Part shown: positions 5,593-62,404 of the stretch, one piece after another
How the letters are laid out: each line of letters starts with the position of its first letter
Numbering within the stretch: the stretch's first letter is position 1
Assembly: GCF_034043515.1 (NCBI RefSeq)
Contig: NZ_CP138214.1
Coordinates: forward strand, 1,860,001 to 1,924,000
Direction: 5' to 3'
Length of the DNA stretch: 64,000 nt
Origin: Pseudomonas sp. MUP55
GTDB lineage: Bacteria > Pseudomonadota > Gammaproteobacteria > Pseudomonadales > Pseudomonadaceae
Translations under genes and position numbers: made by a program
The notes under the pieces: generated by a model
What the model was told of the DNA's origin: nothing
Databases searched by the model: none
What the model saw: only the letters and a program-made list of their open reading frames with translations

Positions 5593-6015
5593 CGGCTGTG
5601 CCCTCGGGCGCGGAATTGGGTTTCAGACCAAAGGGCCGGTCTGTACAGGTGAACCGTTTAAGCGTGATGCCCAGCAGGGCCGGGCCTTTGAAAAATAGAC
5701 CCTGGCGCACTTATCTGCAAAGACCGCAACGCAGCGCGGTTTATCAGGGCTTTCTGATAAAAAAAGCTCCCTTTTTCAGCTATTTCCGGTATAGTGCGCG
5801 CCGGCCTTTAACCGGGCCGCGTTTAGGTAGCGCAATTCCCCGAAGTCAGCTTCGGCTGCACGTCCGCACAGCGGACTCTCCCTTGACGAATCTTTTTCAT
5901 TCATTCGTTTTCGCAAATCCCCGCCGACAAAGCAGCCAGGGCGACTCTTGAGTCTCAACACGGCATGCGCAGCTTTGGAGCATGGGTCTTTGCGGATGCA
6001 CTTAGAGGCAGACCC
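5593..6015 (+). promoter_or_regulatory. Promoter and long structured leader of deaD
   Basis: This 423-base non-coding stretch holds a TATAGT -10-like box at 5790-5795, giving a predicted leader of about 215 nt. A chain of hairpins follows: 5801-5820, 5840-5855 (CCGAAG/CTTCGG), 5862-5876 (GTCCGC/GCGGAC) and 5886-5908 (ACGAAT/ATTCGT). A last hairpin pairs CATGGGTCT (5981-5989) with AGACCCATG (6010-6018), closing on the start codon with the AGAGG Shine-Dalgarno in its loop. Long leaders are usual for cold-shock deaD/csdA mRNAs. The regulation is inferred. Confidence 0.6.
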
Positions 6016-7689
6016 ATGACCCAGGAAACCGGCGGCTTCGCCGCTTTTAATCTTAATCCGAACATTCTCGCCGCCGTCATCGCGACTGGCTACGAAGAAC
6101 CTTCGGCTATTCAGCAGCAATCGATCCCGATCATCATGGCCGGCCAGGACATGATTGGCCAGGCGCAAACCGGTACCGGTAAAACCGCCGCGTTCGCCCT
6201 GCCTATCCTGCACTGCATCGATCCTGCCAAGCGCGAACCGCAAGCCCTGATCCTGGCGCCAACCCGTGAGTTGGCGCTACAAGTAGCAACCGCTTTCGAA
6301 ACCTACGCCAAGCAAATGCCAGGCGTAACCGTTGTGGCCGTTTACGGCGGCGCGCCTATGGGCCCACAACTGAAAGCCATCCGTAATGGCGCACAGATCG
6401 TTGTCGCCACCCCGGGCCGTCTGTGCGACCACCTGCGTCGTGACGAGAAAGTCCTGTCGACCGTGAACCACCTGGTTCTCGACGAAGCCGACGAAATGCT
6501 GAAACTGGGCTTCATGGACGACCTGGAAGTCATCTTCAAGGCGCTGCCACCGACCCGTCAGACCGTGCTGTTCTCGGCCACTCTGCCGCAGTCGATCCGT
6601 GCCATTGCCGAACGCCATCTGCGCGATCCGCAACACGTGAAGATCCAGACCAAGACCCAGACCGTCACCGCGATCGAACAGGCTCACCTGTTGGTTCACG
6701 CCGACCAGAAGACCTCGGCTGTATTGAGCCTGCTGGAAGTCGAAGACTTCGACGCCCTGATCATGTTCGTGCGTACCAAGCAAGCGACCCTGGACCTGGC
6801 CAGTGCCCTGGAAGCCAAAGGCTACAAGGCCGCCGCGCTGAACGGTGACATCGCCCAGAACCAGCGTGAGCGCGTAATCGACTCCCTCAAGGATGGCCGC
6901 CTGGACATCGTTGTGGCGACCGACGTTGCCGCTCGTGGTCTCGACGTTCCGCGTATCACCCACGTGTTCAACGTTGACATGCCTTACGATCCAGAGTCCT
7001 ACGTTCACCGTATCGGCCGTACCGGCCGTGCGGGTCGCGAAGGTCGTGCACTGTTGCTGGTGACTCCACGTGAGCGCCGCATGCTGCAGGTGATCGAGCG
7101 TGTAACCGGCCAGAAAGTCGCTGAAGTGCGTCTGCCGGATGCCCAGGCCGTTCTCGATGCTCGCATCAAGAAACTGACCAACAGCCTGGCGCCGCTGGTG
7201 GCTGACGCTGAATCGACCCACGGCGACCTGCTGGACCGCCTGACTGCCGATATCGGTTGCACCCCGCGTGCCCTGGCTGCAGCTTTGCTGCGCAAAGCCA
7301 CCAACGGTCAGGCCCTGACCCTGGCTGCGATCGAGAAAGAACGCCCACTGGTTCCGAACAACGCGCCACGCGGTGATCGTCCAGAGCGTACCGGCGACCG
7401 TCCAGACCGTGGTGATCGTGAGCGTCGTGCTCCGGTTCCATTGGCTGAAGGTCGTGCGCGTTGCCGCACCGCGCTGGGCGCGCGTGACGGTATCGCTGCC
7501 AAGAACCTGCTGGGCGCTATCCTCAACGAGGGTGGCCTGGCGCGTGAAGCCATCGGTCGTATCCAGGTACGTGACAGCTTCTCCCTGGTGGAGCTGCCGG
7601 AAGACGGTCTGGAAAAACTGCTGGCCAAGCTCAAAGACACACGCGTTGCCGGCAAGCAGTTGAAGCTGCGTCGCTACCGCGAAGATTGA
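6016..7689 (+). CDS. deaD: DEAD-box ATP-dependent RNA helicase DeaD/CsdA
   Basis: This 557-residue cold-shock RNA helicase helps ribosome assembly and mRNA turnover. Visible motifs in order are a Q motif (GYEEPSAIQQQSIP), Walker A AQTGTGKT (residues 50-57), PTREL, TPGR, DEAD (VLDEADEM), SAT, VATDVAARGLD and HRIGRTGR. A DbpA-type RNA-binding domain (AIGRIQVRDSFSLVEL) ends the protein after a charged DRPER-like linker near residue 460. It lacks the long basic tail of E. coli DeaD. I place the start at the ATG at 6016 (MTQETGGF), the usual pseudomonad N-terminus. An upstream in-frame ATG at 5965 exists but lies in the structured leader. Confidence 0.95.
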   Translation: MTQETGGFAAFNLNPNILAAVIATGYEEPSAIQQQSIPIIMAGQDMIGQAQTGTGKTAAFALPILHCIDPAKREPQALILAPTRELALQVATAFETYAKQMPGVTVVAVYGGAPMGPQLKAIRNGAQIVVATPGRLCDHLRRDEKVLSTVNHLVLDEADEMLKLGFMDDLEVIFKALPPTRQTVLFSATLPQSIRAIAERHLRDPQHVKIQTKTQTVTAIEQAHLLVHADQKTSAVLSLLEVEDFDALIMFVRTKQATLDLASALEAKGYKAAALNGDIAQNQRERVIDSLKDGRLDIVVATDVAARGLDVPRITHVFNVDMPYDPESYVHRIGRTGRAGREGRALLLVTPRERRMLQVIERVTGQKVAEVRLPDAQAVLDARIKKLTNSLAPLVADAESTHGDLLDRLTADIGCTPRALAAALLRKATNGQALTLAAIEKERPLVPNNAPRGDRPERTGDRPDRGDRERRAPVPLAEGRARCRTALGARDGIAAKNLLGAILNEGGLAREAIGRIQVRDSFSLVELPEDGLEKLLAKLKDTRVAGKQLKLRRYRED

Positions 7690-7718
7690 TCCGCCCTTCG
7701 GGCTGATTGATCGCACAT

Positions 7719-7751
7719 AAAAAATCCCCGACTGGTTCGGGGATTTTTTTT
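7719..7751 (+). terminator. Rho-independent terminator of deaD
   Basis: A perfect AATCCCCGA/TCGGGGATT-type stem is followed by eight T residues on the plus strand and preceded by an A run. It therefore also works for the convergent ygiD gene. Confidence 0.93.
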
Positions 7752-7779
7752 GCCTGGGATTTCAGGCTGTGCACCTGTG

Positions 7780-8547
7780 TTAGCCAAAGCGATAGATGTC
7801 CATGCCCAAGGCGCCGAGGGTGAAGCCCTGATGCGCCACGCTGAAATCACCGCCGGCACCTCGCGCAAAGTAAAGCGGCAACAAATGCTCGTCGCTGGGG
7901 TGGCTGCGCACGGCATGGGGCGCCAGGAGGCGATAGTCATGCAAGGCTGTTTCGTCACCGGCAGCGAGTTTTTCGACCACCCAGTCGCGAAAGGCTTGCG
8001 CCCATGGCGTGATGGTTCCCGGCCCGGCGCGCCAGTCCAGCTCACCGAGATTATGGGTGATGCTGCCGGAGCCGATCAGTAGCACACCTTGATCGCGCAG
8101 ACTGCAGAGGGCATGTCCAACCCGGGTTTGAAAAGCCGGGCCCATGCGGCTTGGCAGGGAGACTTGCACCACCGGAATATCCGCCGCCGGGTACATCAAC
8201 GATAGGGGCACCCAGGTGCCATGGTCGAAGGGCCGTTGGTTGTGGACCTGTGCAGTCAGGCCGTCGGCCTGCAATAACTCGGCAATTTCATTCGCCAGTC
8301 GTGGATCACCCGGCGCAGGGTATTGCACCGCAAACAGTTCGGGAGGGAAGCCGCCGAAGTCGTGCCAGGTTTCGGGCGCGGCGCTGCCACTGACCAGTAG
8401 CTCGTGGCTTTCCCAATGCGCCGATACCACCACAATCGCCTTGGGCCGTGGCAACGCGTCTGCCAGGGCCTGCAGCGCCGGGCCGCTGGCGCCGGGTTGC
8501 AGAGCCAGCATCGGGGAGCCATGGGAGATAAACAGGCTGGGCAACAT
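7780..8547 (-). CDS. ygiD: 4,5-DOPA-type extradiol dioxygenase (YgiD/DODA family)
   Basis: The 255-residue protein is a class III extradiol ring-cleavage dioxygenase, LigB superfamily. It begins with the family signature LFISHGSPM, followed by VVSAHWES, NQRPFDHGTWVPL and a late SHPSDEHLLPL, which supply the metal-binding histidines. E. coli YgiD cleaves L-DOPA in vitro; the natural substrate in pseudomonads is not established. It is divergent from tpm, with an AT-rich spacer of about 100 bases. Confidence 0.9.
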   Translation of the reverse strand: MLPSLFISHGSPMLALQPGASGPALQALADALPRPKAIVVVSAHWESHELLVSGSAAPETWHDFGGFPPELFAVQYPAPGDPRLANEIAELLQADGLTAQVHNQRPFDHGTWVPLSLMYPAADIPVVQVSLPSRMGPAFQTRVGHALCSLRDQGVLLIGSGSITHNLGELDWRAGPGTITPWAQAFRDWVVEKLAAGDETALHDYRLLAPHAVRSHPSDEHLLPLYFARGAGGDFSVAHQGFTLGALGMDIYRFG

Positions 8548-8650
8548 GAGAAGAGTCCTGAAGATTAATATCGGGCTATCTTCATTCAGATCATTAATCC
8601 AGATCTAATATAATATTTAGTGTCTTTTGATCGATTTTTCAGGGTGATGC

Positions 8651-9307
8651 ATGGACGCAAGAATTTGGCAGGAGCGCTGGGCAACCAATCAGATCGGTTT
8701 TCATCAGACCGACGTTAATCCTTACTTGCAGCGGCATTGGTCAACGTTGGCCCTGGTCAATGGTGCCAGGGTTTTCGTGCCTTTGTGCGGCAAGAGCCTG
8801 GACATGAAGTGGTTGGCGGATCGTGGGCATCGCGTGATGGGTGTGGAGGTGTCGGATAAAGCCGTTGAGGCATTCTTCAGCGAACAGGGGCTTGCGCCGC
8901 AGATCGATCAGAGAGGCGTGTTCAAGGTGTATCAGGCGGGCCTGATCGAAGTGTGGTGCGGTGACTTCTTCGCCCTTGACGCAAGTGCTGTGGCCGGTTG
9001 CACGGCGTTGTATGACCGTGCGGCACTGATCGCCTTGCCGCAGCCAATCCGCTCGCGATACACCGAGCATCTCGATACCCTGCTGACCCCTGCCTGTGAG
9101 GGGCTGTTGATCACTGTTGACTACGACCAGACGCAGAGGGCTGGCCCGCCCTTCGCTGTCCCGGATGAGGAAGTGCAGTCGCTGCTGGGCCCGCACTGGA
9201 ATGTGATCACGCTGCAAGAGCGGGACATTTTGAGTGAAAGCAGCAAATTCAGGGCCGATGGCGTTACTCGGCTTGATGAGCGTGTTTATCGGCTGACCAG
9301 GCGGTAA
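8651..9307 (+). CDS. tpm: Thiopurine S-methyltransferase
   Basis: This 218-residue SAM-dependent methyltransferase matches the bacterial TPMT family from its start (ARIWQERWATNQIGFHQ) through the SAM loop VFVPLCGKSLDMKWLADRGH and the GVEVSDKAVE acidic strand. Pseudomonad Tpm methylates thiopurines and also selenium and tellurium oxyanions, so it is often called a metalloid resistance gene. A Shine-Dalgarno-like AGGGTGATGC precedes the ATG. It is a single-gene unit closed by a terminator at 9318. Confidence 0.93.
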   Translation: MDARIWQERWATNQIGFHQTDVNPYLQRHWSTLALVNGARVFVPLCGKSLDMKWLADRGHRVMGVEVSDKAVEAFFSEQGLAPQIDQRGVFKVYQAGLIEVWCGDFFALDASAVAGCTALYDRAALIALPQPIRSRYTEHLDTLLTPACEGLLITVDYDQTQRAGPPFAVPDEEVQSLLGPHWNVITLQERDILSESSKFRADGVTRLDERVYRLTRR

Positions 9308-9317
9308 ATCACGCCCA

Positions 9318-9350
9318 CGAAAAAGGGGCGATTCAATCGCCCCTTTTTTG
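9318..9350. terminator. Bidirectional Rho-independent terminator
   Basis: An AAAAGGGGCGATT/AATCGCCCCTTTTTT hairpin lies between the convergent tpm and htpX genes. It has a T run on each strand, so it can stop both transcripts. Confidence 0.92.
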
Positions 9351-9363
9351 TATTGCCGGATTA

Positions 9364-10251
9364 TCAGCCGCGACGACGCAATGCGTCAATCCGCTCTTCC
9401 AGTGGCGGGTGGCTCATGAACAGGCGAGCCAGGCCCTGCTTGATGCCGCCATTGATACCGAAGGCGGTCAGGCTGTCGGGCATATGCACCGGCAGGCCTT
9501 GTTCGGAGCGCAAGCGTTGCAGCGCGCCAATCATTGCGCTGGTGCCCGCCAGGCGTGCGCCGGCTTCGTCTGCGCGGAACTCACGTTTACGCGAAAACCA
9601 CATCACGATGGCGCTTGCCAGGAAGCCCAGGACCAGCTCGGCGAAGATGGTTGCCACGAAGTAGGCGATGCCGCGGCCTTCTTCGTTCTTGAAGATCACC
9701 TTGTCGACGAAGTTGCCGATGATCCGTGCAAAGAACATCACGAAGGTGTTCACCACGCCCTGTACCAGCGCGAGGGTGACCATGTCGCCGTTGGCCACGT
9801 GGCCGATCTCGTGCGCCAGTACCGCTTTGACTTCGTCGGGCGAGAACCGCTCCAGAAGCCCTTGGCTGACCGCTACCAGCGCGTCGTTCTTGTTCCAGCC
9901 GGTGGCAAAGGCGTTGGCCTCATAAGCAGGGAAGATCCCCACTTCGGGCATTTTGATGCCTGCTTCTTGAGACAACTGTTCCACGGTTTGCATCAGCCAT
10001 TGCTCATGGCGAGTGCGTGGTTGAGTGATGATCTGGGTGCTGGTGCTCATTTTCGCCATCCACTTGGAGATGAACAGCGAGAACAACGAACCGGCAAAAC
10101 CAAAGACCGCACAGAAAATCAGCAGCTGATTGAGGTTCAGATCAACCCCGTTGGCCGCCATGAACCCGTCGAAGCCAAAGAGGCTCAGGGTGACGCTGGC
10201 AATCAGTACGACCGCCAGGTTAGTGGCCAAGAACAGCAGGATGCGCATCAT
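9364..10251 (-). CDS. htpX: Membrane zinc metalloprotease HtpX
   Basis: This 295-residue M48 protease handles misfolded inner-membrane proteins. Two N-terminal membrane helices (about residues 4-24 and 44-62) precede the zinc motif HEIGH (147-151) in [15 protein letters not shown] second pair of helices surrounds [10 protein letters not shown] and [10 protein letters not shown], and the third zinc ligand is in [13 protein letters not shown] strong TGAGGAGAAC Shine-Dalgarno precedes the first of two adjacent ATG codons. In enterobacteria htpX responds to envelope or heat stress; I could not identify a convincing heat-shock promoter here. Confidence 0.95.
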
Positions 10252-49322: not shown

Positions 49323-50213
49323 TTATTTATCGCGAATCGAAAAATTCGCCATATGTTCCAACCCCTTGATCAGCGCCGAGTGGTCCCAGTTACCGCCGCC
49401 AATCGCCGCGCAGGTGCTGAACACCTGTTGTGTACCGGCGGTGTTGGGCAGGTTGATCCCCAACTCCTTGGCACCGGCCAGCGCCAGGTTGAGGTCCTTC
49501 TGGTGCAGGTTGATGCGAAAGCCTGGGTCGAAGGTGCCCTTGATCATGCGTTCGCCGTGCACTTCCAGGATCTTCGAGGAGGCAAAGCCGCCCATCAGCG
49601 CTTCACGCACTTTCGCCGGGTCGGCGCCGTTCTTGGAGGCGAACAGCAACGCTTCGGCCACCGCCTGGATATTGAGCGCCACGATGATCTGGTTGGCGAC
49701 CTTGGCGGTCTGGCCATCACCGTTACCGCCGACCAGGGTGATGTTCTTGCCCATCGCCTGGAACAGCGGCAGCGCGCGTTCGAAGGTTTGCTGCTCGCCG
49801 CCGACCATGATGCTCAAGGTGCCGGCCTTGGCGCCGACTTCACCACCGGACACTGGCGCATCCAGGTACTGCGCGCCGGTCGCGTTGATTTTTGCCGCGA
49901 ACGCCTTGGTGGCGGTGGGGGAGATCGAACTCATGTCGATCACCACCTTGTTGGGCGACAGACCGGCGGCCACGCCGTCGGCGCGCAGCAGCACGTCTTC
50001 GACCTGCGGGGTATCGGGCACCATCACGATGATGAACTCGGCTTCCTGCGCGACTTGCTGCGGGTTGGCCAGGGCCACGGCGCCGGCGCTGATCAGTTCA
50101 GCCGGGGCCTTGCCATGATGTTCGGAGAGGAACAGTTGATGACCTGCTTTCTGCAGGTTGGCGGCCATGGGTTGGCCCATGATGCCGGTGCCGATAAATC
50201 CGATTTTAGCCAT
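49323..50213 (-). CDS. glxR: Tartronate semialdehyde reductase (2-hydroxy-3-oxopropionate reductase)
   Basis: This 296-residue beta-hydroxyacid dehydrogenase reduces tartronate semialdehyde to glycerate with NAD(P)H. It has the Rossmann loop IGFIGTGIMGQPMAANL, the substrate loop DAPVSGGEVGAKAG and the catalytic lysine in GQTAKVANQ. ATG 50213 (MAKIGF) is the start. Confidence 0.94.
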   Translation of the reverse strand: MAKIGFIGTGIMGQPMAANLQKAGHQLFLSEHHGKAPAELISAGAVALANPQQVAQEAEFIIVMVPDTPQVEDVLLRADGVAAGLSPNKVVIDMSSISPTATKAFAAKINATGAQYLDAPVSGGEVGAKAGTLSIMVGGEQQTFERALPLFQAMGKNITLVGGNGDGQTAKVANQIIVALNIQAVAEALLFASKNGADPAKVREALMGGFASSKILEVHGERMIKGTFDPGFRINLHQKDLNLALAGAKELGINLPNTAGTQQVFSTCAAIGGGNWDHSALIKGLEHMANFSIRDK

Positions 50214-50280
50214 GAAGAAATCCTCTTTTTTATTCGATAGGCAGGCTGGGTGAGGTCTGCCAAACACAGCGGGCCCAAAT

Positions 50281-50383
50281 GTGGGAGGGGCGGTGCGACG
50301 ACTCGACTTGCTCCCGATAGCAATGTTTCATTCGAAACGTGTGTCGACTGATGAACCGCTATCGGGAGCAAGCCCCCTCCCAC
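50281..50383. repeat. REP pair with a 16-base insertion in one arm
   Basis: The right arm is a normal copy (50357-50383). In the left arm (50281 on) GTGGGAGGGG is separated from CTTGCTCCCGAT by CGGTGCGACGACTCGA. The pair lies between hyi and glxR. Confidence 0.8.
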
Positions 50384-50404
50384 TTTTGTTTGGTGTTGTG
50401 TCTG

Positions 50405-51187
50405 TTAAATGGCGTTGTGGCTTTTGAGCCAGCCAAGACCGGCTTCGGTGGTGGTCAACGGCTTGTATTCACAGCCCACCCAGCCGGCGTAGCCGATACG
50501 GTCCAGATGCTCGAACAGGAAGCGGTAGTTGATCTCACCGGTGCCCGGTTCGTTGCGCCCTGGGTTGTCGGCCAGCTGGATGTGGTTGATCTCGCCCAGG
50601 TGCGTGGCCATGGTGCGGGCCAGGTCGCCCTCCATGATTTGCATGTGATAGATGTCGTATTGCAGGAACAGGTTGTCACTGCCCACCTGCTCGCGAATCG
50701 ACAGGGCCTGCGCGGTGTTGTTGAGGTAGAAACCCGGAATGTCGCGGGTATTGATCATCTCCATCACCAGCTTGATGCCCGCGGCCTGCAACTTCTCGGC
50801 GGCGTACTTGAGGTTGGCGACGAAGGTCTTTTCCACGGTTTCGTCATCCACGCCCTGCGGCCGGATGCCCGCCAGGCAGTTGACCTGGGTATTGCCCAGC
50901 ACCTGGGCGTAGGCGATGGCCAGCTTGACCCCGGCGCGGAATTCCTCGACCCGGTCGGGGTGGCAGGCCAGGCCGCGTTCGCCTTTGGCCCAGTCACCGG
51001 CCGGCAGGTTGAACAGCACCTGGGTCAGGCCGTTGGCGTCGAGCTGCGCCTTGATCTCGGCGGAGCTGAACTCATACGGGAACAGATATTCCACACCCTG
51101 AAAGCCCGCGTCGGCGGCCGCTTTGAAGCGGGCAAGGAAATCCTGTTCGGTAAACAGCATGGACAGGTTGGCGGCAAAGCGCGGCAT
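50405..51187 (-). CDS. hyi: Hydroxypyruvate isomerase
   Basis: This 260-residue TIM-barrel enzyme interconverts hydroxypyruvate and tartronate semialdehyde. It shows RFAANLSMLFTEQDFLARF at the N-terminus, the metal-site glutamate in KLVMEMINTRDIPGFY and LQYDIYHMQIMEGD, and a final GCEYKP. ATG 51187 gives MPRFAANL. It lies 10 bases after gcl and is co-transcribed. Confidence 0.94.
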   Translation of the reverse strand: MPRFAANLSMLFTEQDFLARFKAAADAGFQGVEYLFPYEFSSAEIKAQLDANGLTQVLFNLPAGDWAKGERGLACHPDRVEEFRAGVKLAIAYAQVLGNTQVNCLAGIRPQGVDDETVEKTFVANLKYAAEKLQAAGIKLVMEMINTRDIPGFYLNNTAQALSIREQVGSDNLFLQYDIYHMQIMEGDLARTMATHLGEINHIQLADNPGRNEPGTGEINYRFLFEHLDRIGYAGWVGCEYKPLTTTEAGLGWLKSHNAI

Positions 51188-51197
51188 AGGGTTCTCC

Positions 51198-52973
<1,776 letters not shown>

Positions 52974-53229
52974 GGTTTTGGTGCCTCTTGCGTTTTGTAA
53001 TTGTATACAAGTGGTGTCTGGACAAAGTGTATTCACGGCGAGCAACGCAGGTCAATGCATTTTATAAACTGGCCTTTGCGTTCGTCGGAACGGCTTTTTT
53101 CGACGTATGGAAGGTTTGTCTGGAAATATTGTATACAAAAACAAATGTCATTGTGTTCTATTTGTTTGATCGAGCATCTGAACAAACAGACCTCCACCGC
53201 ATTCCCAATAACAAAAGAAGGACGGCACC
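52974..53229. promoter_or_regulatory. Divergent gcl/glcG promoter with two TTGTATACAA operators
   Basis: The 256-base region has perfect 10-bp palindromes TTGTATACAA at 53001-53010 (next to gcl) and 53129-53138 (toward glcG), 128 bases apart. This is the type bound by GntR-family repressors. The second site is within ATATTGTATACAAAAAC. Confidence 0.7.
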
Positions 53230-53670
53230 ATGAGCGCTTTAACCTTGAAACTCGCCACCCAACTGGCCGGCCAGGCCCTCGTCGCAGGGCGTACTATTTC
53301 GGCCGCGCCGCTGACCATTGCGGTACTCGACAGCGGCGGCCACCTGGTGACCCTGCAACGCGAAGACGGCGCGAGCCTGTTGCGCCCGCAGATTGCCATC
53401 GGCAAGGCCTGGGGTGCGATTGCCCTGGGCAAGGGCTCGCGCCTGCTGGCGCTGGACGCGCAGCAGCGGCCGGCATTTATCGCAGCGCTGAACAGCCTGG
53501 GGCAGGGCAGTGTGGTGCCCGCTCCGGGCGGCGTGTTGATTCGGAATCAGGATGGTGTGGTGCTGGGGGCGATCGGGATCAGCGGGGATACGTCGGATAT
53601 TGACGAGCAGTGCGCGATCACGGCGATCGAGGGGGTGGGGTTGATGGCGGATGCGGGGGTGTCAGCTTAA
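53230..53670 (+). CDS. glcG: GlcG/HbpS (DUF336) family protein
   Basis: This 146-residue protein matches the GlcG/HbpS family: ALTIAVLDSGGHLVTLQRED-like strand, KAWGAIALG, and a C-terminal IGISGDTSDIDEQCAITAIE. Such genes often accompany glycolate or glyoxylate pathways, but their biochemical role is uncertain (heme or small-molecule binding has been described for HbpS). It is divergent from gcl and probably shares the operators. Confidence 0.85.
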   Translation: MSALTLKLATQLAGQALVAGRTISAAPLTIAVLDSGGHLVTLQREDGASLLRPQIAIGKAWGAIALGKGSRLLALDAQQRPAFIAALNSLGQGSVVPAPGGVLIRNQDGVVLGAIGISGDTSDIDEQCAITAIEGVGLMADAGVSA

Positions 53671-53693: not shown

Positions 53694-53783
53694 ATCGGGG
53701 GCAAGCCCCCTCCCACACTTGATCGGGGTTACACATTTCTATTTGAGAATACAGTCAAATGTGGGAGGGGGCTTGCTCCCGAT
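53694..53783. repeat. REP pair (GGGGGCTTGCCCCC family)
   Basis: Inverted copies at 53694-53715 and 53761-53783 fill the gap between convergent glcG and the TetR gene. The right copy has the GCTCCC variant. Confidence 0.85.
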
Positions 53784-53804
53784 CAGCCCAGGCACTGCGG
53801 TGCA

Positions 53805-54410
53805 TCAGTCCGGCTCACAGCCCTTGAGCACCAACCGGATAATGGTCTGAGCGGCCGCCTCATAGTCCGCTTCATCCAGCTTGGCCTTGCCGGTCACTGC
53901 TGAAATCTGCCAGTCAAAATCCGCGTAGGTCTGGGTGGCGGCCCAGATGCTGAACATCAGGTGGTTAGGGTCGATCGCCGCGATCAGGCCACGGTCGACC
54001 CAGTTCTGGATGCAGTCGATATTGTGCTTGGCCTGGGCATTGAGCTGTTCGACCTGTTCGGCGCTCAGGTGCGGGGCGCCGTGCATGATTTCGCTGGCGA
54101 ACACTTTGGAGGCAAACGGCAGGTCCCGGGAGATGCGGATTTTCGAGCGGATGTAGTTGCTCAGGACTTCCTTGGGCTCGCCTTCGGGGTTGAACGGCGT
54201 GGAAGCGGCGAGGATCGGCTCGATGATGCTTTCGAGCACTTCGCGATAGAGGTTGTCCTTGGACTTGAAGTAGTAATAGACGTTGGGCTTGGGCAGCCCC
54301 GCCTTGGCGGCGATGTCGCTGGTTTTGGTCGCGGCGAAGCCCTTGTCGGCAAACTCCTCGCTCGCCGCCCGCAGGATTTTTTCTTTGTTGCGCTCGCGAA
54401 TGGTGCTCAT
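53805..54410 (-). CDS. TetR-family regulator (RutR-like)
   Basis: This 201-residue repressor has an N-terminal helix-turn-helix (FADKGFAATKTSDIAAKAGL, then PKPNVYYYFKSKDNLYREVL) and a RutR/YcdC-like ligand domain (SNYIRSKIRISRDLPFASKV, then EIMHGAPHLSAEQVEQL). Pyrimidine-type or other small metabolites are ligands for relatives. The ATG at 54410 (MSTIRERNKEKIL) was chosen over a longer frame. The same kind of gene lies beyond the gcl operon in P. aeruginosa. Confidence 0.9.
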   Translation of the reverse strand: MSTIRERNKEKILRAASEEFADKGFAATKTSDIAAKAGLPKPNVYYYFKSKDNLYREVLESIIEPILAASTPFNPEGEPKEVLSNYIRSKIRISRDLPFASKVFASEIMHGAPHLSAEQVEQLNAQAKHNIDCIQNWVDRGLIAAIDPNHLMFSIWAATQTYADFDWQISAVTGKAKLDEADYEAAAQTIIRLVLKGCEPD

Positions 54411-54553
54411 AAACCAGGAACTTCCTTGCCATGACAGGCGGTTGCGCATGGTAGCACCGGCTATCCGCGGGCCTCAACAACGCGCATTGCCACGCTTTCC
54501 CTGGGCGGCGTTTGCCTTTACCGTAGCGGATCTTTCGCAGTGGGCACTGGCCG

Positions 54554-55570
54554 ATGGACTCCTCTGAAAAAAACGTGATTACGTCCCTGGATGTGGCCCG
54601 GCATGCCGGCGTTTCGCGTTCGGCGGTGTCGCGCACGTTTACCGCCGGCGCCAGTGTGGCCCCGGCGACGCGGGAGAAGGTGCTGGCTTCGGCCAAGGCT
54701 CTGGGCTATCAGGTCAACATGATTGCCCGCACCATGAACAAAGGCAGCAGCAACTTCGTCGGCGTGGTCACCGCCGGTTTCGACAGTGCCTTTCGCGCCA
54801 GCCTCTTGAGCCCCATCGCCCACAGCCTGAGCCGTCGTGGCTTGATGCCGTTGCTGATGAATGCCGACGACCCGGCGCAGCTTGAGCAGTCGTTGCATGC
54901 ACTGCTCAGCTACCAGATTGCCGGGGTGATCCTCACCTCGGCCTCGCCGCCGTTGTCGGTGGTCCAGCACTACCTGGACCGACAGATCCCGGTGGCGATG
55001 ATCAACCGCGGCCATGAGCTGCCCGGGGCCGAAGTGGTGGGCAGCGATAACCGCGCCGGCGGGCGCATGGCCGCCGAAGCCTTGCTCAGGGGCGGGGCGC
55101 GTCGCCTGGCGTTCATCGGTCAGGGCGAGCACAACTTCAGCAGCCGCGAACGTTGGCTGGGGTTCTCCGAGTGCCTGGCCGAGGGCGGCGTCGAGGCGCA
55201 GACGGTGTTCAATGAAACCCCCGGTTATCAGGGCGGCATGCAAGCCTTGTTGGCACTGTTCAGCCAGGGGGATGGGCCGGATGGAATTTTCTGCGCCACC
55301 GATATGCTGGCGCTCGGGGCCATGGATGCGCTGCGCTATACGTTGCACCGCCAGGTGCCGCAACAGGTGCAGGTGATTGGTTTTGACGATATTGCCCAGG
55401 CCGCGCAGCTGGCTTATGACCTGACCACCGTGCGTCAGGACAGCGTGCAACTGGCGCAACGCGCGGTCAGCGCCATTGTTTCGCGAGGCGAGAATTTCAT
55501 GCGCGTCAAAGAGTTCGAGCCGGTGCCCGTCACCTTGATCGAGCGTGGCACCACGAAGTTTCAGAAATAA
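54554..55570 (+). CDS. LacI-family transcriptional regulator
   Basis: The 338-residue regulator has a LacI helix-turn-helix (SLDVARHAGVSRSAVSRTFT at about residues 11-30) and a periplasmic-binding-like effector domain ending in VQVIGFDDIAQAAQLAYDLT. LacI regulators usually sense sugars or sugar phosphates. It precedes the phosphatase/transport cluster on the same strand, and a perfect 20-bp palindrome lies between it and the next gene, so it probably represses that cluster. The effector is unknown. Confidence 0.92.
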   Translation: MDSSEKNVITSLDVARHAGVSRSAVSRTFTAGASVAPATREKVLASAKALGYQVNMIARTMNKGSSNFVGVVTAGFDSAFRASLLSPIAHSLSRRGLMPLLMNADDPAQLEQSLHALLSYQIAGVILTSASPPLSVVQHYLDRQIPVAMINRGHELPGAEVVGSDNRAGGRMAAEALLRGGARRLAFIGQGEHNFSSRERWLGFSECLAEGGVEAQTVFNETPGYQGGMQALLALFSQGDGPDGIFCATDMLALGAMDALRYTLHRQVPQQVQVIGFDDIAQAAQLAYDLTTVRQDSVQLAQRAVSAIVSRGENFMRVKEFEPVPVTLIERGTTKFQK

Positions 55571-55677
55571 AATTTCAATATTGTATTGAAGTGAAAATTT
55601 ATTTCGTGTTGTATGGGTGGCAGTGGTGAGTGGCTGACTTCTGCAAAAGGGCAGGCCTTCACTTTTTTTTCCCAGTT

Positions 55678-55697
55678 GATTGCACACGTGTGCAATC
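55678..55697 (+). promoter_or_regulatory. 20-bp perfect palindrome, probable LacI-type operator
   Basis: GATTGCACACGTGTGCAATC is a perfect 20-bp inverted repeat with a central CG, the usual symmetry of LacI-family operators. It lies 19 bases upstream of the IMPase gene and downstream of the regulator gene. Confidence 0.75.
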
Positions 55698-55716
55698 TGC
55701 GTTGAAGGTAGGCTTT

Positions 55717-56541
55717 ATGACTCAAGCACAGACGTTACCGGACCTGGACCACCTGGCAGCGCGTTACGCATTGGTGCGTCAGGTCGCGATGGAGGCCGCG
55801 CAGCGTGGCATGACGTATTACCAGCAGCGCGAGCAACTGAACGTCGAGCACAAGGATTCGGTGCCCCAGGACGTGGTCAGCATCGCCGACCGCGAGCTGG
55901 AGGCGTTTATCAAGGCGCGCCTGGCCGAGCAGTTTCCCGAGGATGGCTTTGTAGGGGAGGAGGGCGGTGCCGCCGGCTTGCAGGCACGGTGTGTATGGGT
56001 CGTGGACCCCATCGACGGCACCAGTTGCTTCGTCAATGGCTTGCACACCTGGTGTGTGTCCATCGGTTTGCTGGTGGACGGCCAACCCTGGCTCGGTGCC
56101 GTGGCAGACGCCAATCACAACGAGCTGTTCCATGCCTGCCGCGGCCTGGGCGCCTTTGTGAACGACACGCCAATCCGGGTCAGCCCGGCTGCGGATATTC
56201 GCTACGGCGTGACCGGTGTCGGCACCTCCCATCGGCGCGGCAAGGAGCATTTCATCCCGTTCCTGAGTGGCTTGCTGGAGGGCGGCGGCATGTTTATCCG
56301 TAACGGCTCCGGCGCGTTGATGATCGCCTACGTCGCGGCCGGCCGTCTGGTGGGCTACTACGAAACCCACATCAATAGCTGGGATTGTGCGGCGGGCCTG
56401 GTGCTGGTCAGTGAAGCCGGCGGCCGTTGCAGTGATTTCCTGCGCGGCGATGGCTTGCTCGGCGGCAACCCGTTGCTGGTGGCAAGCCCCCAGGTGTACC
56501 CGCAACTGGCCGAATTGATCGGCCCGTCACTGGAGGCCTGA
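55717..56541 (+). CDS. Inositol monophosphatase family protein
   Basis: The 274-residue Mg-dependent phosphatase has the three metal-site motifs: GEEGG (residues 80-84), DPIDGT (97-102) and WDCAAGLVLVSEAGG. No signal peptide is seen, so it is cytoplasmic. Family members cleave inositol phosphates, sugar phosphates, histidinol phosphate or PAP. It begins at ATG 55717, just after the LacI operator, and opens the cluster. Its companions are an organophosphate transporter and two periplasmic acid phosphatases. Confidence 0.88.
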   Translation: MTQAQTLPDLDHLAARYALVRQVAMEAAQRGMTYYQQREQLNVEHKDSVPQDVVSIADRELEAFIKARLAEQFPEDGFVGEEGGAAGLQARCVWVVDPIDGTSCFVNGLHTWCVSIGLLVDGQPWLGAVADANHNELFHACRGLGAFVNDTPIRVSPAADIRYGVTGVGTSHRRGKEHFIPFLSGLLEGGGMFIRNGSGALMIAYVAAGRLVGYYETHINSWDCAAGLVLVSEAGGRCSDFLRGDGLLGGNPLLVASPQVYPQLAELIGPSLEA

Positions 56542-56603
56542 GCCCGTTTCACGATCCCGTGTTTCAACGTACAGCGAATAATAACAATAGGAGACTGTCC
56601 GCC

Positions 56604-57974
56604 ATGAAATCCCTGCTGTCCTTGTTCCACGCCGCGCCCGCGCGGCCCCTGGTGGCCGACCCCGATGGGCGACGTTTTCGCCGGGTGCGCTGGCTGACCT
56701 TTTTATCCATGTCCTTGAGCTACGCGCTGTTCTACGTATGCCGGTTGTCTTTCAATGTGGCCAAGCCGGCGCTGGTGAGCCAGAACCTGCTCAGCCCTAC
56801 GCAACTGGGCATGATCGGTTCGGCGTTGTTCTTTACCTATGCGGTGGGCAAGCTGGTCAACGGCTTCCTGGCCGACCATGCCAATGTCCGGCGCTTCATG
56901 ATGCTCGGGTTGTTGATCAGTGCGGTGGTCAACGCGTGCATGGGCCTGACCACCAACGCGGTCATTCTCACCCTGGCCTGGGGCTTGAATGGTTGGGCCC
57001 AATCCATGGGCGTGGGGCCGTGCGTGGTGTCGTTGTCGCGCTGGTATGCCGACAAGGAACGCGGCACCTTCTATGGCTTCTGGTCGATTGCCCACAGTCT
57101 GGGCGAGGCGCTGACCTACATCGCCGTCGCCGCCGTGATCGTGACCTGGGGCTGGCAATACGGCTACTTCCTGGCGACCGCCATGGGCGTGCTTGGCATG
57201 TTGCTGATCTACCTGTTCATGGCTGACTCGCCGCAGAGCGCGGGCTTTGCCGAAGTGGACGGCGGCCGCGAGGAAGTGCTGCTCAAGACCGTCGGCAAGT
57301 GGGGCGCGCAACTGGCACTCCTTAAAAACCCGGCGCTGTGGCTGCTGGCCCTGGCTTCATGCCTGATGTACATCGGCCGGTATGCGGTGATTTCCTGGGG
57401 GGTGTTCTTCCTGGAAAACGCCAAGGGCTACAACACGCTGTCGGCCTCGGCGCTGATCTCCATCACCGGTGTGTTCGGCATCGTCGGCACGGGCCTGAGC
57501 GGGCTGATTTCCGACCGCTTCTTCAGCGGCCGGCGCCATGGCCTGGCGATCCTGTTTGGTTTGATGAACAGCGCATCGTTGGGAATGTTCCTGTTCCTGC
57601 CCGGTGGCCACTACTGGCTGGACGCGGCGGCGATGATGCTGTTCGGCCTGTCCATGGGCGCGCTGCTGTGTTTCCTCGGTGGCCTGATGGCCGTGGACAT
57701 TGCCGCTAAAAGTGCAGCCGGTGCGGCGCTGGGCATGATCGGCATTGCCAGCTACGCCGGGGCGGCGGCGGGCGAGATCCTCACCGGAGTGCTGATCGAA
57801 CACGGCACGACCCTGGCCCAGGACGGCAGCAAGCTGTACGACTTTCATACCCTGTCGCTGTTCTGGCTGGGCGCCTCATTGATTTCAGTGCTGATGACCG
57901 CGTTGTTTTCCGGGCAGGTTCACCGCCGTAAGCGAAAACAACGGCCTCTGGTCGATACGCCGTTAACGAACTGA
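56604..57974 (+). CDS. OPA-type organophosphate:phosphate MFS transporter
   Basis: The 456-residue transporter has 12 helices and the organophosphate:phosphate antiporter signature SRWYADKERGTFYGFWSIAH. N-terminal FLSMSLSYALFYVCRLSFNV and GKLVNGFLADHANVRR fit the GlpT/UhpT/PgtP group. It should import a phosphorylated metabolite in exchange for phosphate across the inner membrane. Start ATG 56604; 62 bases follow the phosphatase gene. Its exact substrate (hexose phosphate, phosphoglycerate, glycerol phosphate or inositol phosphate) cannot be told. Confidence 0.9.
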   Translation: MKSLLSLFHAAPARPLVADPDGRRFRRVRWLTFLSMSLSYALFYVCRLSFNVAKPALVSQNLLSPTQLGMIGSALFFTYAVGKLVNGFLADHANVRRFMMLGLLISAVVNACMGLTTNAVILTLAWGLNGWAQSMGVGPCVVSLSRWYADKERGTFYGFWSIAHSLGEALTYIAVAAVIVTWGWQYGYFLATAMGVLGMLLIYLFMADSPQSAGFAEVDGGREEVLLKTVGKWGAQLALLKNPALWLLALASCLMYIGRYAVISWGVFFLENAKGYNTLSASALISITGVFGIVGTGLSGLISDRFFSGRRHGLAILFGLMNSASLGMFLFLPGGHYWLDAAAMMLFGLSMGALLCFLGGLMAVDIAAKSAAGAALGMIGIASYAGAAAGEILTGVLIEHGTTLAQDGSKLYDFHTLSLFWLGASLISVLMTALFSGQVHRRKRKQRPLVDTPLTN

Positions 57975-58076
57975 TCACCCTTGGGTTTCAACCGTTCCGA
58001 GTCATCGGAAGCGGTACCGCTGCGCGCGTAAAACAGCAAAGTTGTCGTCATCCACAATAAAAATAACAGGTGAAAT

Positions 58077-58796
58077 ATGAAGAAGTTGAGCGCTGGACAT
58101 CGTGGGAAAGTATTAAGGCGATACTCGTTTATCGGCCTGGTGGTTGCCTCCACCACCACCCAGGCGCTGGAGCTGGATTACCAGCACCAGTACTCCGAAG
58201 TGGAGCGTGAGCATAAAGACAAAGTGATGCTGACCCAGGCCCTGGACAATGGCCTGGCCTTTTCCTTCGAAGCCGTGATGGCCACTGCGCCTGACAGCGA
58301 TGGCGGACCCGGCAAGGCGTTTTCCCGCCTGACCAAGGACGAACTCAAGGCCAAGGTCAAGTACAGCCACAAGCTGGGCGCCCAGTGGAAACTCAAGCCC
58401 AAGTTCACCTACGCCGACGGCAAGGATAAGAAATCCTATAAGCCGTCGCTGAAAGTGTCTTATGCCCTCACCGATAAATTTTCGATTACGCCGGGCTATT
58501 ACCACAAGCTCACGCGGTATGACGAAACCGGCAAGGCCGACAAGCACGACGACGCGGTCGAGTTGGGCGCCAAGTACAAGTTCGGCCTGTTATCGGTTGG
58601 GGTCGGGCGCAAGCAGATTTACAGCAACCAGATTGTCTTCGACGGCACGCGCAAGAACTACAGCAACAAGCTGTTGTTGGAATACAAACTGACCAAACGC
58701 TTGACGCCCTACCTGGAAGTGGCCGACGTGTATGTCGACAAAGACACTGACCAGCGCCAGGCCCGCTATCGCGTGGGCTTCTCCTACGAATTCTGA
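58077..58796 (+). CDS. KdgM-family outer-membrane porin
   Basis: This 239-residue protein has a signal sequence (YSFIGLVVASTTTQA) and alternating beta strands ending in the outer-membrane FSYEF terminus. The overall pattern (LELDYQHQYSEVEREHKDKV; YSHKLGAQWKLKPKFTYADG) matches the KdgM family of small 12-strand porins for anionic oligosaccharides. The barrel interior is rich in Lys and Arg, which would suit a negatively charged solute. It lies between the transporter and the phosphatases in one unit. Confidence 0.85.
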   Translation: MKKLSAGHRGKVLRRYSFIGLVVASTTTQALELDYQHQYSEVEREHKDKVMLTQALDNGLAFSFEAVMATAPDSDGGPGKAFSRLTKDELKAKVKYSHKLGAQWKLKPKFTYADGKDKKSYKPSLKVSYALTDKFSITPGYYHKLTRYDETGKADKHDDAVELGAKYKFGLLSVGVGRKQIYSNQIVFDGTRKNYSNKLLLEYKLTKRLTPYLEVADVYVDKDTDQRQARYRVGFSYEF

Positions 58797-58812
58797 TGAA
58801 AGGAACCCGAGC

Positions 58813-60090
58813 ATGACCCTACTCAATCGTACGGGCCTGGCGTTGGCCATGTTGACGCTATGCACCGGCCTGCAGGCTGGCGAAACCAACCATTACGTGC
58901 TGGAAAAAGCCGTGCAGGTCAGCCGCCATGGCGTGCGCTCGCCCACCGATACCGACAAGCTGGTCAAGGCCACCGGTCGCGCCTGGACGCCATGGCTGGT
59001 GCAGGACGGCGAGCTGACCGGCCACGGCTACCTGGCGGCCAGTTACATGGGCGCCTGGCAGGCCGCGTATTACCGCAATGCCGGCCTGCTGGCCAGCGGC
59101 TGTGCGCAGCCGGGCAGCCTGGTCGCCGTGGCCAGCCCCAAGCAGCGCACGCGCTCCACCGCCGCCGCGCTGCTGGACGGCATGTTTCCCGGCTGCGGTG
59201 AAAAGGCCTTGGCCCGCAGCAAGCCGGACCCGCTGTTCCAGACCGATGAAATGCCGTTTGCCAAGGTCGACCCGGCCATCGCCAAGGCGCAGATCCTGCA
59301 AGCTCTGGGTGGCGACCTGCACGCCGCCCAGGAGCGTCTGCGCCCGGATCTGGAGCGCCTGAAAAACGCGGTGTGCGAAGCCGGCAAGGCCTGTCCGTTC
59401 TTCGACACGCCGTGGGTGTTGAAGGAGGGCGATGGTGGGCGTTTCAAGATCAAGGGCCTGGACAAGGCGTCGTCGATGGCCGAAACCATTCGCCTGCAAT
59501 ACAGCGAGGGCATGCCCCTGGCCGATGTCGCCTTCGGCCATGCGCGGGACGCCGCACAGGTCTCGGCCCTGGGGCGCCTGCACCGGGCCAAATATGACTT
59601 CGTCAACGACACGCCGCACATCGCCAGCCGTGGCGGCTCGCAGTTGATGAACCAGATCGTGCTGGCCCTGGAGCAGGGTACGCCCTGGGAGAAAAACGAT
59701 CCGTTGGGCAACCCGCCGCCGGCGCGCCTGTTGATGCTGGTGGCCCATGACACCAATATCTCGCACTTGCGCACCATGCTCGGGTTTACCTGGCAGTTGG
59801 GTGAATACCAGCCGGGTAATATCCCGCCCACCGGCACCCTGGCGTTCGAGCGCTACCGTGACACCGAGACCGGCGAGCGCTTTATCCGCACGCGCTTTAT
59901 CACCCAGGGCATGGACCAGATACGCGCCTTGCAACGTCTGGATACTGAGCATCCGCCGTTGCAGGTCGACTTCGATCAACCCGGCTGCCAGCACACCCCC
60001 GTTGGCACGCTGTGCCCCATGGCGCAGTTCGTCGAGCGCACCGGCCGTGCCATCGACCGCACGGCGCTGACGGCTTACCGCTACCCTTGA
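58813..60090 (+). CDS. Periplasmic histidine acid phosphatase (copy 1)
   Basis: The 425-residue enzyme has a signal peptide (LALAMLTLCTGLQA|GET), the RHGVRSPT catalytic motif with nucleophile His 39, and the proton-donor HDTN in [10 protein letters not shown]. It belongs to histidine phosphatase branch 2, with glucose-1-phosphatase, AppA phytase and acid phosphatases. ATG 58813 follows AAAGGAAC. It is closely similar along its whole length to the next gene, so they are tandem paralogues. Confidence 0.92.
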   Translation: MTLLNRTGLALAMLTLCTGLQAGETNHYVLEKAVQVSRHGVRSPTDTDKLVKATGRAWTPWLVQDGELTGHGYLAASYMGAWQAAYYRNAGLLASGCAQPGSLVAVASPKQRTRSTAAALLDGMFPGCGEKALARSKPDPLFQTDEMPFAKVDPAIAKAQILQALGGDLHAAQERLRPDLERLKNAVCEAGKACPFFDTPWVLKEGDGGRFKIKGLDKASSMAETIRLQYSEGMPLADVAFGHARDAAQVSALGRLHRAKYDFVNDTPHIASRGGSQLMNQIVLALEQGTPWEKNDPLGNPPPARLLMLVAHDTNISHLRTMLGFTWQLGEYQPGNIPPTGTLAFERYRDTETGERFIRTRFITQGMDQIRALQRLDTEHPPLQVDFDQPGCQHTPVGTLCPMAQFVERTGRAIDRTALTAYRYP

Positions 60091-60098
60091 CCCGGCGC

Positions 60099-60128
60099 GG
60101 CCATCCCCGCTCGCGGGCGGGAATGGCC
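60099..60128 (+). other. Hairpin between the two phosphatase genes
   Basis: GGCCATCCCCGC and GCGGGAATGGCC form a 12-bp stem with one mismatch and a small loop in the 66-base gap. No T run follows, so it may attenuate or stabilise rather than terminate. Confidence 0.55.
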
Positions 60129-60156
60129 CGGCGTAGACCCGACACAGGACACCGTT

Positions 60157-61443
60157 ATGTTCGCTTGTTTCATACGCTTCACCCCGTTGCTGCTGGCCAG
60201 CCTGGTTTCGCTGCAGGCCCACGCCGAACCCGTCGACGGCTTTGTGCTGGACAAGGTGGTGCAGGTCAGCCGCCACGGCGTGCGCCCACCCACCGACAGT
60301 GCGAAACTGGCCAAGGTTACCGGGCGCGCACTGCCCGGTTGGTCGGTGCCGGATGGACACCTGACCGGCCACGGTTACGCCGCAGCGGTGGAGATGGGCC
60401 GTTACCGCGGCCAGGTCTTGCGCGCCGCCGGCCTGCTGTCCAGCGGCTGTCCGGCGCCTGGCCAAGTGTATGTGCGCGCCAGCCCTCTGCAGCGCACCCA
60501 GGCCACGGCTTCGGCGCTGCTCGATGGCCTGTTCCCTGGTTGTGGGTTGCAACCGAGCGTGGTGCACGGCGACCAGGATGCGCTGTTCCAGGCCGACAAA
60601 ATGCCCTTCGCCCGTCTGGACCTTCAGCGCGCCGAAGACAGCGTGCTGGCGCGCATGGGCGGCAGCGTGGCCGGCGCTCAAGCCCGCTACCACGATGCAC
60701 AGCAGCAATTGCGCAAGGTGATCTGCACCGCCTCCAACCCGTGCGCCTACGTCGACGAGCCCTGGCAATTGATCCAGGACGAAGACGGTCGCCTGGCGAT
60801 CAAGGGCTTGAACACCCAGGCCAACCTCGGCGAGACCTTCCGCCTGGAGTACAGCGAAGGCTTGCCGCTGGACCAGGTCGCCTTCGGCGCCGCGCGCAGT
60901 GCGCAGCAAGTCTCCCAACTGACCACGCTGACCAAGGCCAAGTACGACTTCATCAACGACAACCTCTACATCGCCAGCCGTGGCGGTTCGCAGCTGATGA
61001 ACCAGATTTCCCTGGCGCTCAAACAAGGCACGCCCCAGGCCATTGATGACCCGCTGGGCATGCCGCCTGACGCGCGCTTCACCTTGCTGGTGGCGCATGA
61101 CACCAACATTTCCTACCTGCGCACGCTGCTGGGTTTTCGCTGGACCCTGGGTGATTACCTGGAGGGCAATATCCCGCCGGTGGGCAGCCTGCAATTGGAG
61201 CGCTACAAGCAGGTCGCAACCGGCCGCTACTTCCTGCGCGTGGCGTTCGAGGCGCAGTCCCTGGAGCAGATTCGCCAGTTGACGCCGCTGACCACGGCCC
61301 AACCGCCGCTGCACGCCGATATGGCCGGGGCTGAGGGCTGCGTCCACACCTCAGTGGGTGTGCTGTGCCCCTTGGCCAGTGCTTTGCAACGGCTGGACCG
61401 AAACATCGATCGCAGCGCGCTGACGCCGTACCACTATCCATAA
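60157..61443 (+). CDS. Periplasmic histidine acid phosphatase (copy 2)
   Basis: The 428-residue second copy has a signal peptide ([16 protein letters not shown]), RHGVRPPT with His 40, and HDTN in [10 protein letters not shown]. It shares long blocks with copy 1 (QVSRHGVR, DGx[32 protein letters not shown] ending). The copies differ in the middle, which suggests different positional or substrate preference. It closes the cluster. Confidence 0.92.
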
Positions 61444-61489
61444 CGGCGCCAGCCTCCTATCCTCGGCGAAACTTTTCGAGGAATGGCAC

Positions 61490-62404
61490 ATGGCAGGAAG
61501 CAGCTTACTGGTACTGATCGACGACATCGCGGCCGTCCTGGATGACGTCGCGCTGATGACCAAGGTGGCCGCCAAGAAGACCGCCGGCGTGCTCGGCGAT
61601 GACTTGGCCCTCAACGCCCAGCAGGTTTCCGGTGTGCGCGCCGAGCGGGAGATCCCGGTGGTGTGGGCGGTCGCCAAGGGCTCGTTTCTCAACAAGCTGA
61701 TCCTGGTGCCGGCGGCCTTGCTGATCAGCGCGTTTGCGCCGTGGGCGGTCACCCCGTTGCTGATGCTGGGCGGTGCCTACCTGTGTTTCGAAGGTTTCGA
61801 AAAACTCGCCCACAAGTATTTGCACAGCAAGGCTGACGATCAGGCTGAACATGCGCAGTTGACCGAAGCGGTGGCCGACCCGGCGACAGACCTGGTGGCC
61901 TTCGAAAAGGACAAGATCAAAGGCGCGGTCCGTACCGATTTCATCCTCTCGGCCGAGATCATCGCGATCACTCTGGGCACCGTGGCGGATGCACCCTTGA
62001 TGCAGCAGGTGATTGTGCTGTCGGGTATTGCGATTGTGATGACCATCGGTGTCTATGGCCTGGTGGCCGGCATCGTCAAACTGGATGACCTGGGCCTGTG
62101 GCTGACGCAGAAGCCCGGCCAGGCGGCGCGCAGCATCGGCGGCGCGATTTTGCGCGCGGCGCCGTACATGATGAAGAGCCTGTCGGTGATCGGCACGGCG
62201 GCGATGTTTCTGGTCGGCGGCGGCATTCTGACCCACGGCGTGCCGGTGGTGCATCACTGGATCGAAAGCGTCAGCCAGAGTGTGGGTGGGCTGGCGTGGT
62301 TGATGCCAACGCTGCTGAACGCGGTGGCGGGGATAATTGCCGGCGCTGTTGTGCTGGCGGTGGTCAGCTTGGTCGGCAAAGGTTGGAAAGCGCTCAGGGC
62401 ATAA
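61490..62404 (+). CDS. DUF808 (YedI-like) membrane protein
   Basis: The 304-residue protein has the DUF808 start [20 protein letters not shown], then [20 protein letters not shown]. Several hydrophobic helices follow (for example [20 protein letters not shown] and [20 protein letters not shown]). The family function is unknown. It lies 46 bases after the phosphatases on the same strand and may be read through, but an independent role is more likely. A terminator follows. Confidence 0.87.

Follow-up and report, generated by a model that had tools for sequence, protein, structure and literature searches.

A probable LacI-controlled operon of Pseudomonas for drawing carbon from phytate and lower inositol phosphates

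Introduction

Phytate is one of the main organic phosphorus stores of plants, and bacterial phytases have, to our knowledge, been treated mostly as lone phosphorus-releasing enzymes. The 64,000-nucleotide stretch of Pseudomonas sp. MUP55 analysed here (hereafter the window; RefSeq assembly GCF_034043515.1, contig NZ_CP138214.1, positions 1,860,001 to 1,924,000) carries one + strand block consisting, in this order, of the genes for a LacI-family regulator, an inositol-monophosphatase-family enzyme (IMPase), a transporter of the OPA family, a KdgM-type porin and two histidine acid phosphatases, HAP1 and HAP2. What do phytase-like enzymes achieve in such company? A previous interpretation, made from the letters of the DNA and hereafter called the sequence-only reading, had listed these six genes with their order, strand and position, all of which agree with the open reading frames and with the Pfam and NCBIfam family matches obtained here.

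We consider it probable that the block is a LacI-controlled operon by which the cell draws carbon from phytate and lower inositol phosphates. In this route, whose substrate, product isomer, direction of transport, repression and inducer are proposed from the observed families, motifs, gene order, operator conservation and linkages, the KdgM porin would admit the anionic substrate, and HAP1 and HAP2 would strip phosphates from it in the periplasm down to a monophosphate, probably inositol 2-phosphate (Ins(2)P). The OPA protein would then bring inositol monophosphate in and inorganic phosphate out, and the cytoplasmic IMPase would release myo-inositol for the iol pathway together with one phosphate. 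Judging by the family mechanism, each phosphate released by the IMPase would match one given out by the antiporter; it would re-supply the exchange, and the net internal gain would be inositol. LacI would repress the genes from a palindrome, and either inositol or an inositol phosphate, once present, would act as the inducer.

With rather less confidence, although still leaning towards it, we propose that the block represents a mobile phytate-to-inositol carbon module, common to Pseudomonas and Klebsiella and organized around a previously unrecognised inositol-monophosphate:phosphate antiporter, in which the periplasmic phytases would stop at the last phosphate, which is hard to remove, and the cell would take up this dead-end product and complete the work internally, with the phosphate set free there driving more exchange. 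All of the part families are known, and enzyme studies exist for the Klebsiella phytase PhyK. The block would be a catabolic operon of ordinary parts; the inositol-monophosphate transporter function appears to be undescribed. No description of the operon or the route was found among the titles and abstract openings returned by searches of an open-access library, and an earlier description in a subscription journal is possible. If the proposal is true, a regulated operon which finishes the last step inside explains the fate of the monophosphate that phytases leave as well as bacterial growth on phytate as carbon, assigns a role to a transporter branch rich in homologs, and places the much-studied PhyK in a pathway. 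With a defined operator and defined partner genes, the pathway is directly testable.

The histidine acid phosphatases and the Klebsiella phyK locus

Both phosphatases match PF00328 (His_Phos_2; 118.9 bits for HAP1, 112.9 bits for HAP2) and carry the RHGxRxP and HD motifs of histidine acid phytases of the PhyK/AppA type, as RHGVRSP (residue 38) and HDTN (312) in HAP1 and as RHGVRPP (39) and HDTN (314) in HAP2. They are 54% identical to each other, are the sole PF00328 matches in the genome at E <= 0.001, and have N-termini that look signal-like by eye. The best NCBIfam model for both is that of the AppA family (NF007552), with 239 bits for HAP1 and 216 bits for HAP2; the equivalog cut-off of 585 bits is missed by both, which are thus not called AppA orthologs. 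The best solved relative of HAP1 is the Klebsiella 3-phytase 2wnh (E 4.1e-105), above the AppA and Agp chains.

These scores bear on an alternative that we regard as unlikely, namely sugar-phosphate scavenging, in which Agp-like phosphatases would act on glucose-1-phosphate, the OPA protein would take up phosphates of hexoses or of glycerol, and the role of the IMPase would be that of a general sugar phosphatase. HAP1 and HAP2 do match the model for glucose-1-phosphatase/inositol phosphatase (NF007553), with 150 bits and 166 bits, respectively, but both reach higher scores with the AppA phytase model. Escherichia coli AppA phytase and Agp glucose-1-phosphatase belong to the same enzyme superfamily as HAP1 and HAP2, and we know of no OPA or IMPase partner for either. 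Their control differs from that of the unit described here, agp being constitutive and appA, within appCBA, being induced on phosphate starvation and in the stationary phase, as stated in PMC4642748.

A closer parallel to the proposed phytate route is found in Klebsiella. The plasmid collection holds eight records with an OPA match, and the neighbourhoods were examined in four of them; the other four are two from Proteus and two from Plesiomonas (36% identity). The Vibrio fluvialis record (OPA 37%) has no such neighbour genes, whereas two K. pneumoniae records (L040, L041) and one of K. aerogenes (L042) show LacI, IMPase, OPA and phosphatase genes in the order of the window, with identities of 51-53%, 60%, 54-55% and 41-45%, respectively. 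The phosphatase of K. pneumoniae is practically identical to 2wnh, that is, to PhyK, the solved 3-phytase (E 2.2e-263). PhyK thus holds the corresponding position, which speaks against sugar phosphates as the substrate. The Klebsiella locus differs from the window in that it has a single phosphatase instead of the tandem HAP1/HAP2, and in that no porin is annotated between OPA and phosphatase. In K. aerogenes the OPA gene is annotated in three parts, and the match to the IMPase is split into two. L041 (CP125156.1), labelled K. pneumoniae 'plasmid unnamed2', is 5.37 Mb long, which points to a chromosome deposited under a plasmid label. Klebsiella isolates have been obtained with phytate as the only carbon and phosphorus source, and one of them, CP-84, is stated to carry a PhyK-type phytase (PMC11219571); at least 97% of K. 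pneumoniae genomes are given as iol-positive in PMC9430895.

Proposed import and cytoplasmic dephosphorylation, and the porin

The OPA protein matches MFS_1, and its best OPA-family models in NCBIfam are PgtP (TIGR00881) and UhpC, tied at 226 bits, with GlpT slightly lower at 196 bits. The closest solved chain is GlpT 1pw4. Residues R47, K83, H164 and R259 align with the same residues in GlpT, where we take the counterparts to be R45, K80, H165 and R269 of the substrate path, and they are invariant in the four sequences of alignment A2. Family membership together with these substrate-site residues, whose roles are presumed from GlpT, marks the protein as a predicted OPA antiporter.

That the OPA protein is a UhpC-like sensor rather than a transporter seems to us very improbable. 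Close homologs do bear the name 'sugar phosphate sensor protein UhpC', or a UhpC-like one, in some sources; the unit, however, contains no UhpA/UhpB-type partner and possesses its own LacI, and the scores of the PgtP, UhpC and GlpT models do not single out UhpC. Of the 7997 candidates scored, 3040 reach E <= 1e-100, and among the 120 matches listed the named OPA homologs are mostly 'MFS transporter' or UhpC-like. Two 755-aa proteins (P0077, P0078) span IMPase and OPA. As fusions these are probably not genuine, the linker resembling, by eye, translated intergenic Klebsiella sequence.

Regarding the substrate of a predicted antiporter of this kind, the model names of OPA relatives with known substrates refer to glycerol-3-phosphate, hexose-6-phosphate or phosphoglycerate, which lends some weight to sugar-phosphate scavenging; imported hexose phosphates would, however, enter metabolism directly and make a cytoplasmic phosphatase superfluous. 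The IMPase belongs to the inositol monophosphatase family, matching PF00459 (Inositol_P) at 191.8 bits and carrying the metal-binding motifs GEE (80), DPIDGT (97) and WD (222-223); E216 and D223 are invariant across the five sequences of alignment A1. With 126.8 bits against a cut-off of 332 it falls short of the SuhB equivalog NF008027. A stand-alone ortholog, 67-71% identical, occurs in six further genomes without adjoining LacI or OPA genes (L030-L035), and by eye at least three of these orthologs lie beside a conserved gene resembling a TSUP-type permease.

The porin belongs to the KdgM family (PF06178, 112 bits against a cut-off of 22), as do the small anion porins KdgM and NanC; solved KdgM 4fqe matches it at E 1.4e-18, and its N-terminal segment appears signal-like by eye. 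A PHROGs search with the porin gave no match.

The LacI-type regulator and a conserved palindrome

An ortholog of the regulator stands first in the eight distinct complete loci (window included), in L029 and in the three Klebsiella loci. Between the LacI and IMPase genes lies a perfect 20-bp palindrome, GATTGCACACGTGTGCAATC, which the sequence-only reading had not mentioned and which is the sole perfect palindrome with arms of at least 7 bp within 53701-62000. Its 16-bp core, TTGCACACGTGTGCAA, is separated by 21 bp from the start codon of the IMPase gene and is exact in all nine distinct loci aligned (the eight complete ones and L029), although the surrounding sequence has diverged. In its own genome the core is a single site at up to 2 mismatches, and an exact match occurs in one of the 369 genomes of the class sample, which is this same genome. 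Upstream of the Klebsiella IMPase genes the core is exact in K. aerogenes L042 and has 1 mismatch in K. pneumoniae L040.

A second copy of the core occurs upstream of the KdgM gene in two P. lundensis loci, in P. paraversuta and in genome G132 (without mismatch in L005 and L013, with a single one in L006/L012 and L007/L014); no such copy was found at up to 3 mismatches in the window, L003, L004, L010 or L011. The palindrome is a probable LacI operator, and its distribution fits a dedicated local regulator. Control by LacI, as claimed in the sequence-only reading, is thus supported by an operator-like palindrome that is conserved beside the gene presumably controlled.

This type of control is also pertinent to the view that the block is a phosphate-acquisition locus, in which the phosphatases would supply phosphate, the other genes would be auxiliary and carbon use would be incidental. 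Phytases are mostly discussed as phosphorus suppliers, yet a LacI-type regulator with its own conserved palindrome is at odds with such a role (Pho boxes were not searched for), and an OPA antiporter, from what is known of the family, swaps phosphate for phosphate ester with zero net phosphate. We hold phosphate acquisition to be quite improbable.

Conservation and possible spread within Pseudomonas

The proteins HAP1, OPA, KdgM and IMPase were each searched for in a genus sample of 199 genomes, with at most eight candidates scored per genome in the OPA search. All five relatives of the locus that carry a species or strain name belong to Pseudomonas. An OPA ortholog is present in seven genomes at E <= 1e-60 (G000, G059, G071, G106, G132, G140, G196), and in six of these seven the whole set of six genes recurs without change of order. 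HAP1 matches 15 genomes at E <= 1e-3, two of them marginally (about 9e-4), and the IMPase 13 genomes at E <= 1e-40. KdgM matches 39 genomes at E <= 1e-3, with at least 60% identity in six and at most 34% in the others; the matches of at least 60% are confined to the six sampled genomes that carry the full unit, a restriction which sets this porin apart from KdgM and NanC. The seventh OPA-positive genome, G140, keeps LacI-IMPase-OPA followed by an OprD-family porin and has a beta-propeller phytase elsewhere; the genus-sample searches found no HAP or KdgM match in it.

The complete unit occurs in eight distinct genomes, including the window (L003, L004, L010, L011, L013, L006, L007; L006 equals L012 and L007 equals L014, each pair counted as one genome), and L005, truncated by a contig end, shows KdgM-HAP1-HAP2. 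The unit is not an accidental arrangement. A lack of co-conservation, which the sequence-only reading had named as a refuting condition, is not what these loci show: the genes stay together as a block in the genus and, apart from the porin, in Klebsiella as well. The KdgM porin falls outside what is universal, since none is annotated beside these genes in Klebsiella and an OprD-family porin takes its place in G140. In L004 (Pseudomonas sp. ATCC PTA-122608) the OPA match at 5807-7148 lies in two frames, which indicates a broken gene or a draft-assembly error.

In a comparison of 3-kb flanks (nucleotide matches over 200 bases at E <= 1e-10; L010 left out), matches between left flanks are confined to the groups L003/L004 and L006/L007/L013 and those between right flanks to the pair L007 and L013, and the flanks of L011 and L029 match no other locus; the left neighbours of L010 are the same as those of the window. 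Because flanks match only within these few groups, the unit sits at about four different places in the genus. Such varied sites are as expected of horizontal spread, which may have occurred; loss, rearrangement and divergence are also possible. In a phosphatase tree of 25 rows, the sequences of HAP1 and of HAP2 group into two distinct clades with nine rows each (support 99/98 and 99/99), and therefore the duplication is probably older than the spread within the genus. The HAP2 of G071 falls outside both clades on a long branch, and its placement is unsure.

A broken histidine acid phosphatase lies in several frames at about 7447-9865 of locus L022 in genome G051, with a LacI helix-turn-helix-like stretch and, upstream, near-operators (2 and 3 mismatches). 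This locus, from a genome with 9% estimated contamination, is possibly a decayed relative of the unit.

Link to inositol catabolism

The proposed product of the route is myo-inositol, and the relation of the unit to iol clusters was observed in two ways. In G210, a genome from another family of the class, iolD, iolE, iolB and iolA are followed on one strand by OPA, IMPase and PhoD-like phosphatase genes; iolD, iolE and iolB exceed the NCBIfam equivalog cut-offs and iolA exceeds the MMSDH subfamily cut-off. The OPA protein of this pair is 41% and its IMPase 35% identical to those of the window. Within the 369-genome class sample an OPA match was found only in G210 and in the window's own genome, absences being weak evidence here as at most four candidates were scored per genome. 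In the genus sample, iolE is above its cut-off in 92 of 199 genomes overall and in all seven OPA-positive ones (Fisher p 0.004, relatedness ignored).

A related OPA-IMPase pair within an iol cluster is a further point against sugar-phosphate scavenging, and the association with iolE argues against phosphate acquisition. The sequence-only reading had named phytate, leading to inositol phosphate, and extracellular sugar phosphates as the best candidates; the former is now favoured, given PhyK at the same position in Klebsiella, the pair in G210 and iolE in seven of seven genomes.

In contrast to G210, the iol operon of the window's own genome (5.95 Mb, single contig) is unlinked to the unit. It lies at C1:2.58-2.60 Mb and comprises an iolC-aldolase fusion, iolE, iolB, iolD and iolG, all above cut-off; iolA was not found by tblastn in this stretch. 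Downstream in the locus, a protein resembles ABC sugar-binding proteins but stays below their cut-offs.

Outside the window, the same genome has beta-propeller phytase domains in one 624-aa open frame (G000:C1:2447052-2448548), which would suit a phosphate-acquisition role. This phytase family is found in 56 of the 199 genomes and in five of the seven OPA-positive ones (p 0.02, uncorrected). With this distribution it was set aside as a partner enzyme of the unit, being accessory at most.

Observations weighing against the phytate-to-inositol route

Several observations count against the use of phytate by way of an imported monophosphate. Histidine acid phosphatases are able to act on other phosphate esters, and mammalian IMPases are poor on Ins(2)P. 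Because of the stand-alone orthologs in six further genomes, the IMPase family tells little about the substrate. The OPA protein lies under the curated cut-offs of all OPA models listed, including the GlpT, UhpT and PgtP equivalogs; it shares the family and the four GlpT residues with these antiporters but differs from them in these scores and in that its gene is paired with a phosphatase gene. As both the OPA protein and the IMPase are below the model cut-offs, the names GlpT, UhpT, PgtP, SuhB and HisN are not transferable to them. The phosphatase also turns up outside the unit: in seven sampled genomes a clear match to HAP is unaccompanied by one to OPA, the HAP match being close in G116, G198 and G076 (in the last at a contig start) and more distant in G051, G086, G094 and G095. 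The G210 pair has neither a LacI match nor, at up to 3 mismatches, a copy of the operator, and the iolE association is based on about four lineages.

The most direct objection is that PhyK is assumed, in a statement of PMC12838507, to dephosphorylate phytate completely. If PhyK-type enzymes go to completion, import of a monophosphate is unnecessary, and OPA and IMPase would be nearly idle. The regular company of these two proteins in the unit argues against complete dephosphorylation by PhyK-type enzymes. Sajidan and colleagues reportedly found in 2004 that PhyK stops at Ins(2)P.

Gene coordinates and neighbouring genes

The features of the unit are collected in Table 1. By eye, comparison with homologs and the context of the start codons make 55717 (IMPase), 56604 (OPA) and 58813 (HAP1) the most likely translation starts.

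Table 1. Features of the unit, in positions of the window
Feature	Position	Strand	Basis and remarks
LacI-family regulator	54554..55570	+	PF00356, PF13377, PF00532; probable local repressor of the operon
Possible promoter, block TTGAAG-N17-TTGTAT	55586..55614	+	by eye only; largely conserved in the nine-locus alignment
Palindrome (core at 55680-55695)	55678..55697		probable LacI operator
Inositol-monophosphatase-family enzyme (IMPase)	55717..56541	+	PF00459
OPA-family antiporter (predicted)	56604..57974	+	best NCBIfam models TIGR00881/UhpC/GlpT
KdgM-type outer-membrane anion porin	58077..58796	+	PF06178
HAP1, histidine acid phosphatase of PhyK/AppA type, probably periplasmic	58813..60090	+	PF00328
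HAP2, second histidine acid phosphatase, probably periplasmic	60157..61443	+	PF00328

A promoter scan gave one site in the region against 1.5 in shuffled sequences and did not flag the block listed as a possible promoter; a terminator scan of the region gave 8 against 6.9 in shuffles. A TetR-like gene on the - strand (53805-54449, by eye) precedes the LacI gene and is placed outside the unit, as are the other left neighbours. These comprise, at 49323-53670 and again by eye, a set resembling glyoxylate carboligase, hydroxypyruvate isomerase and tartronate semialdehyde reductase together with a GlcG-like gene.

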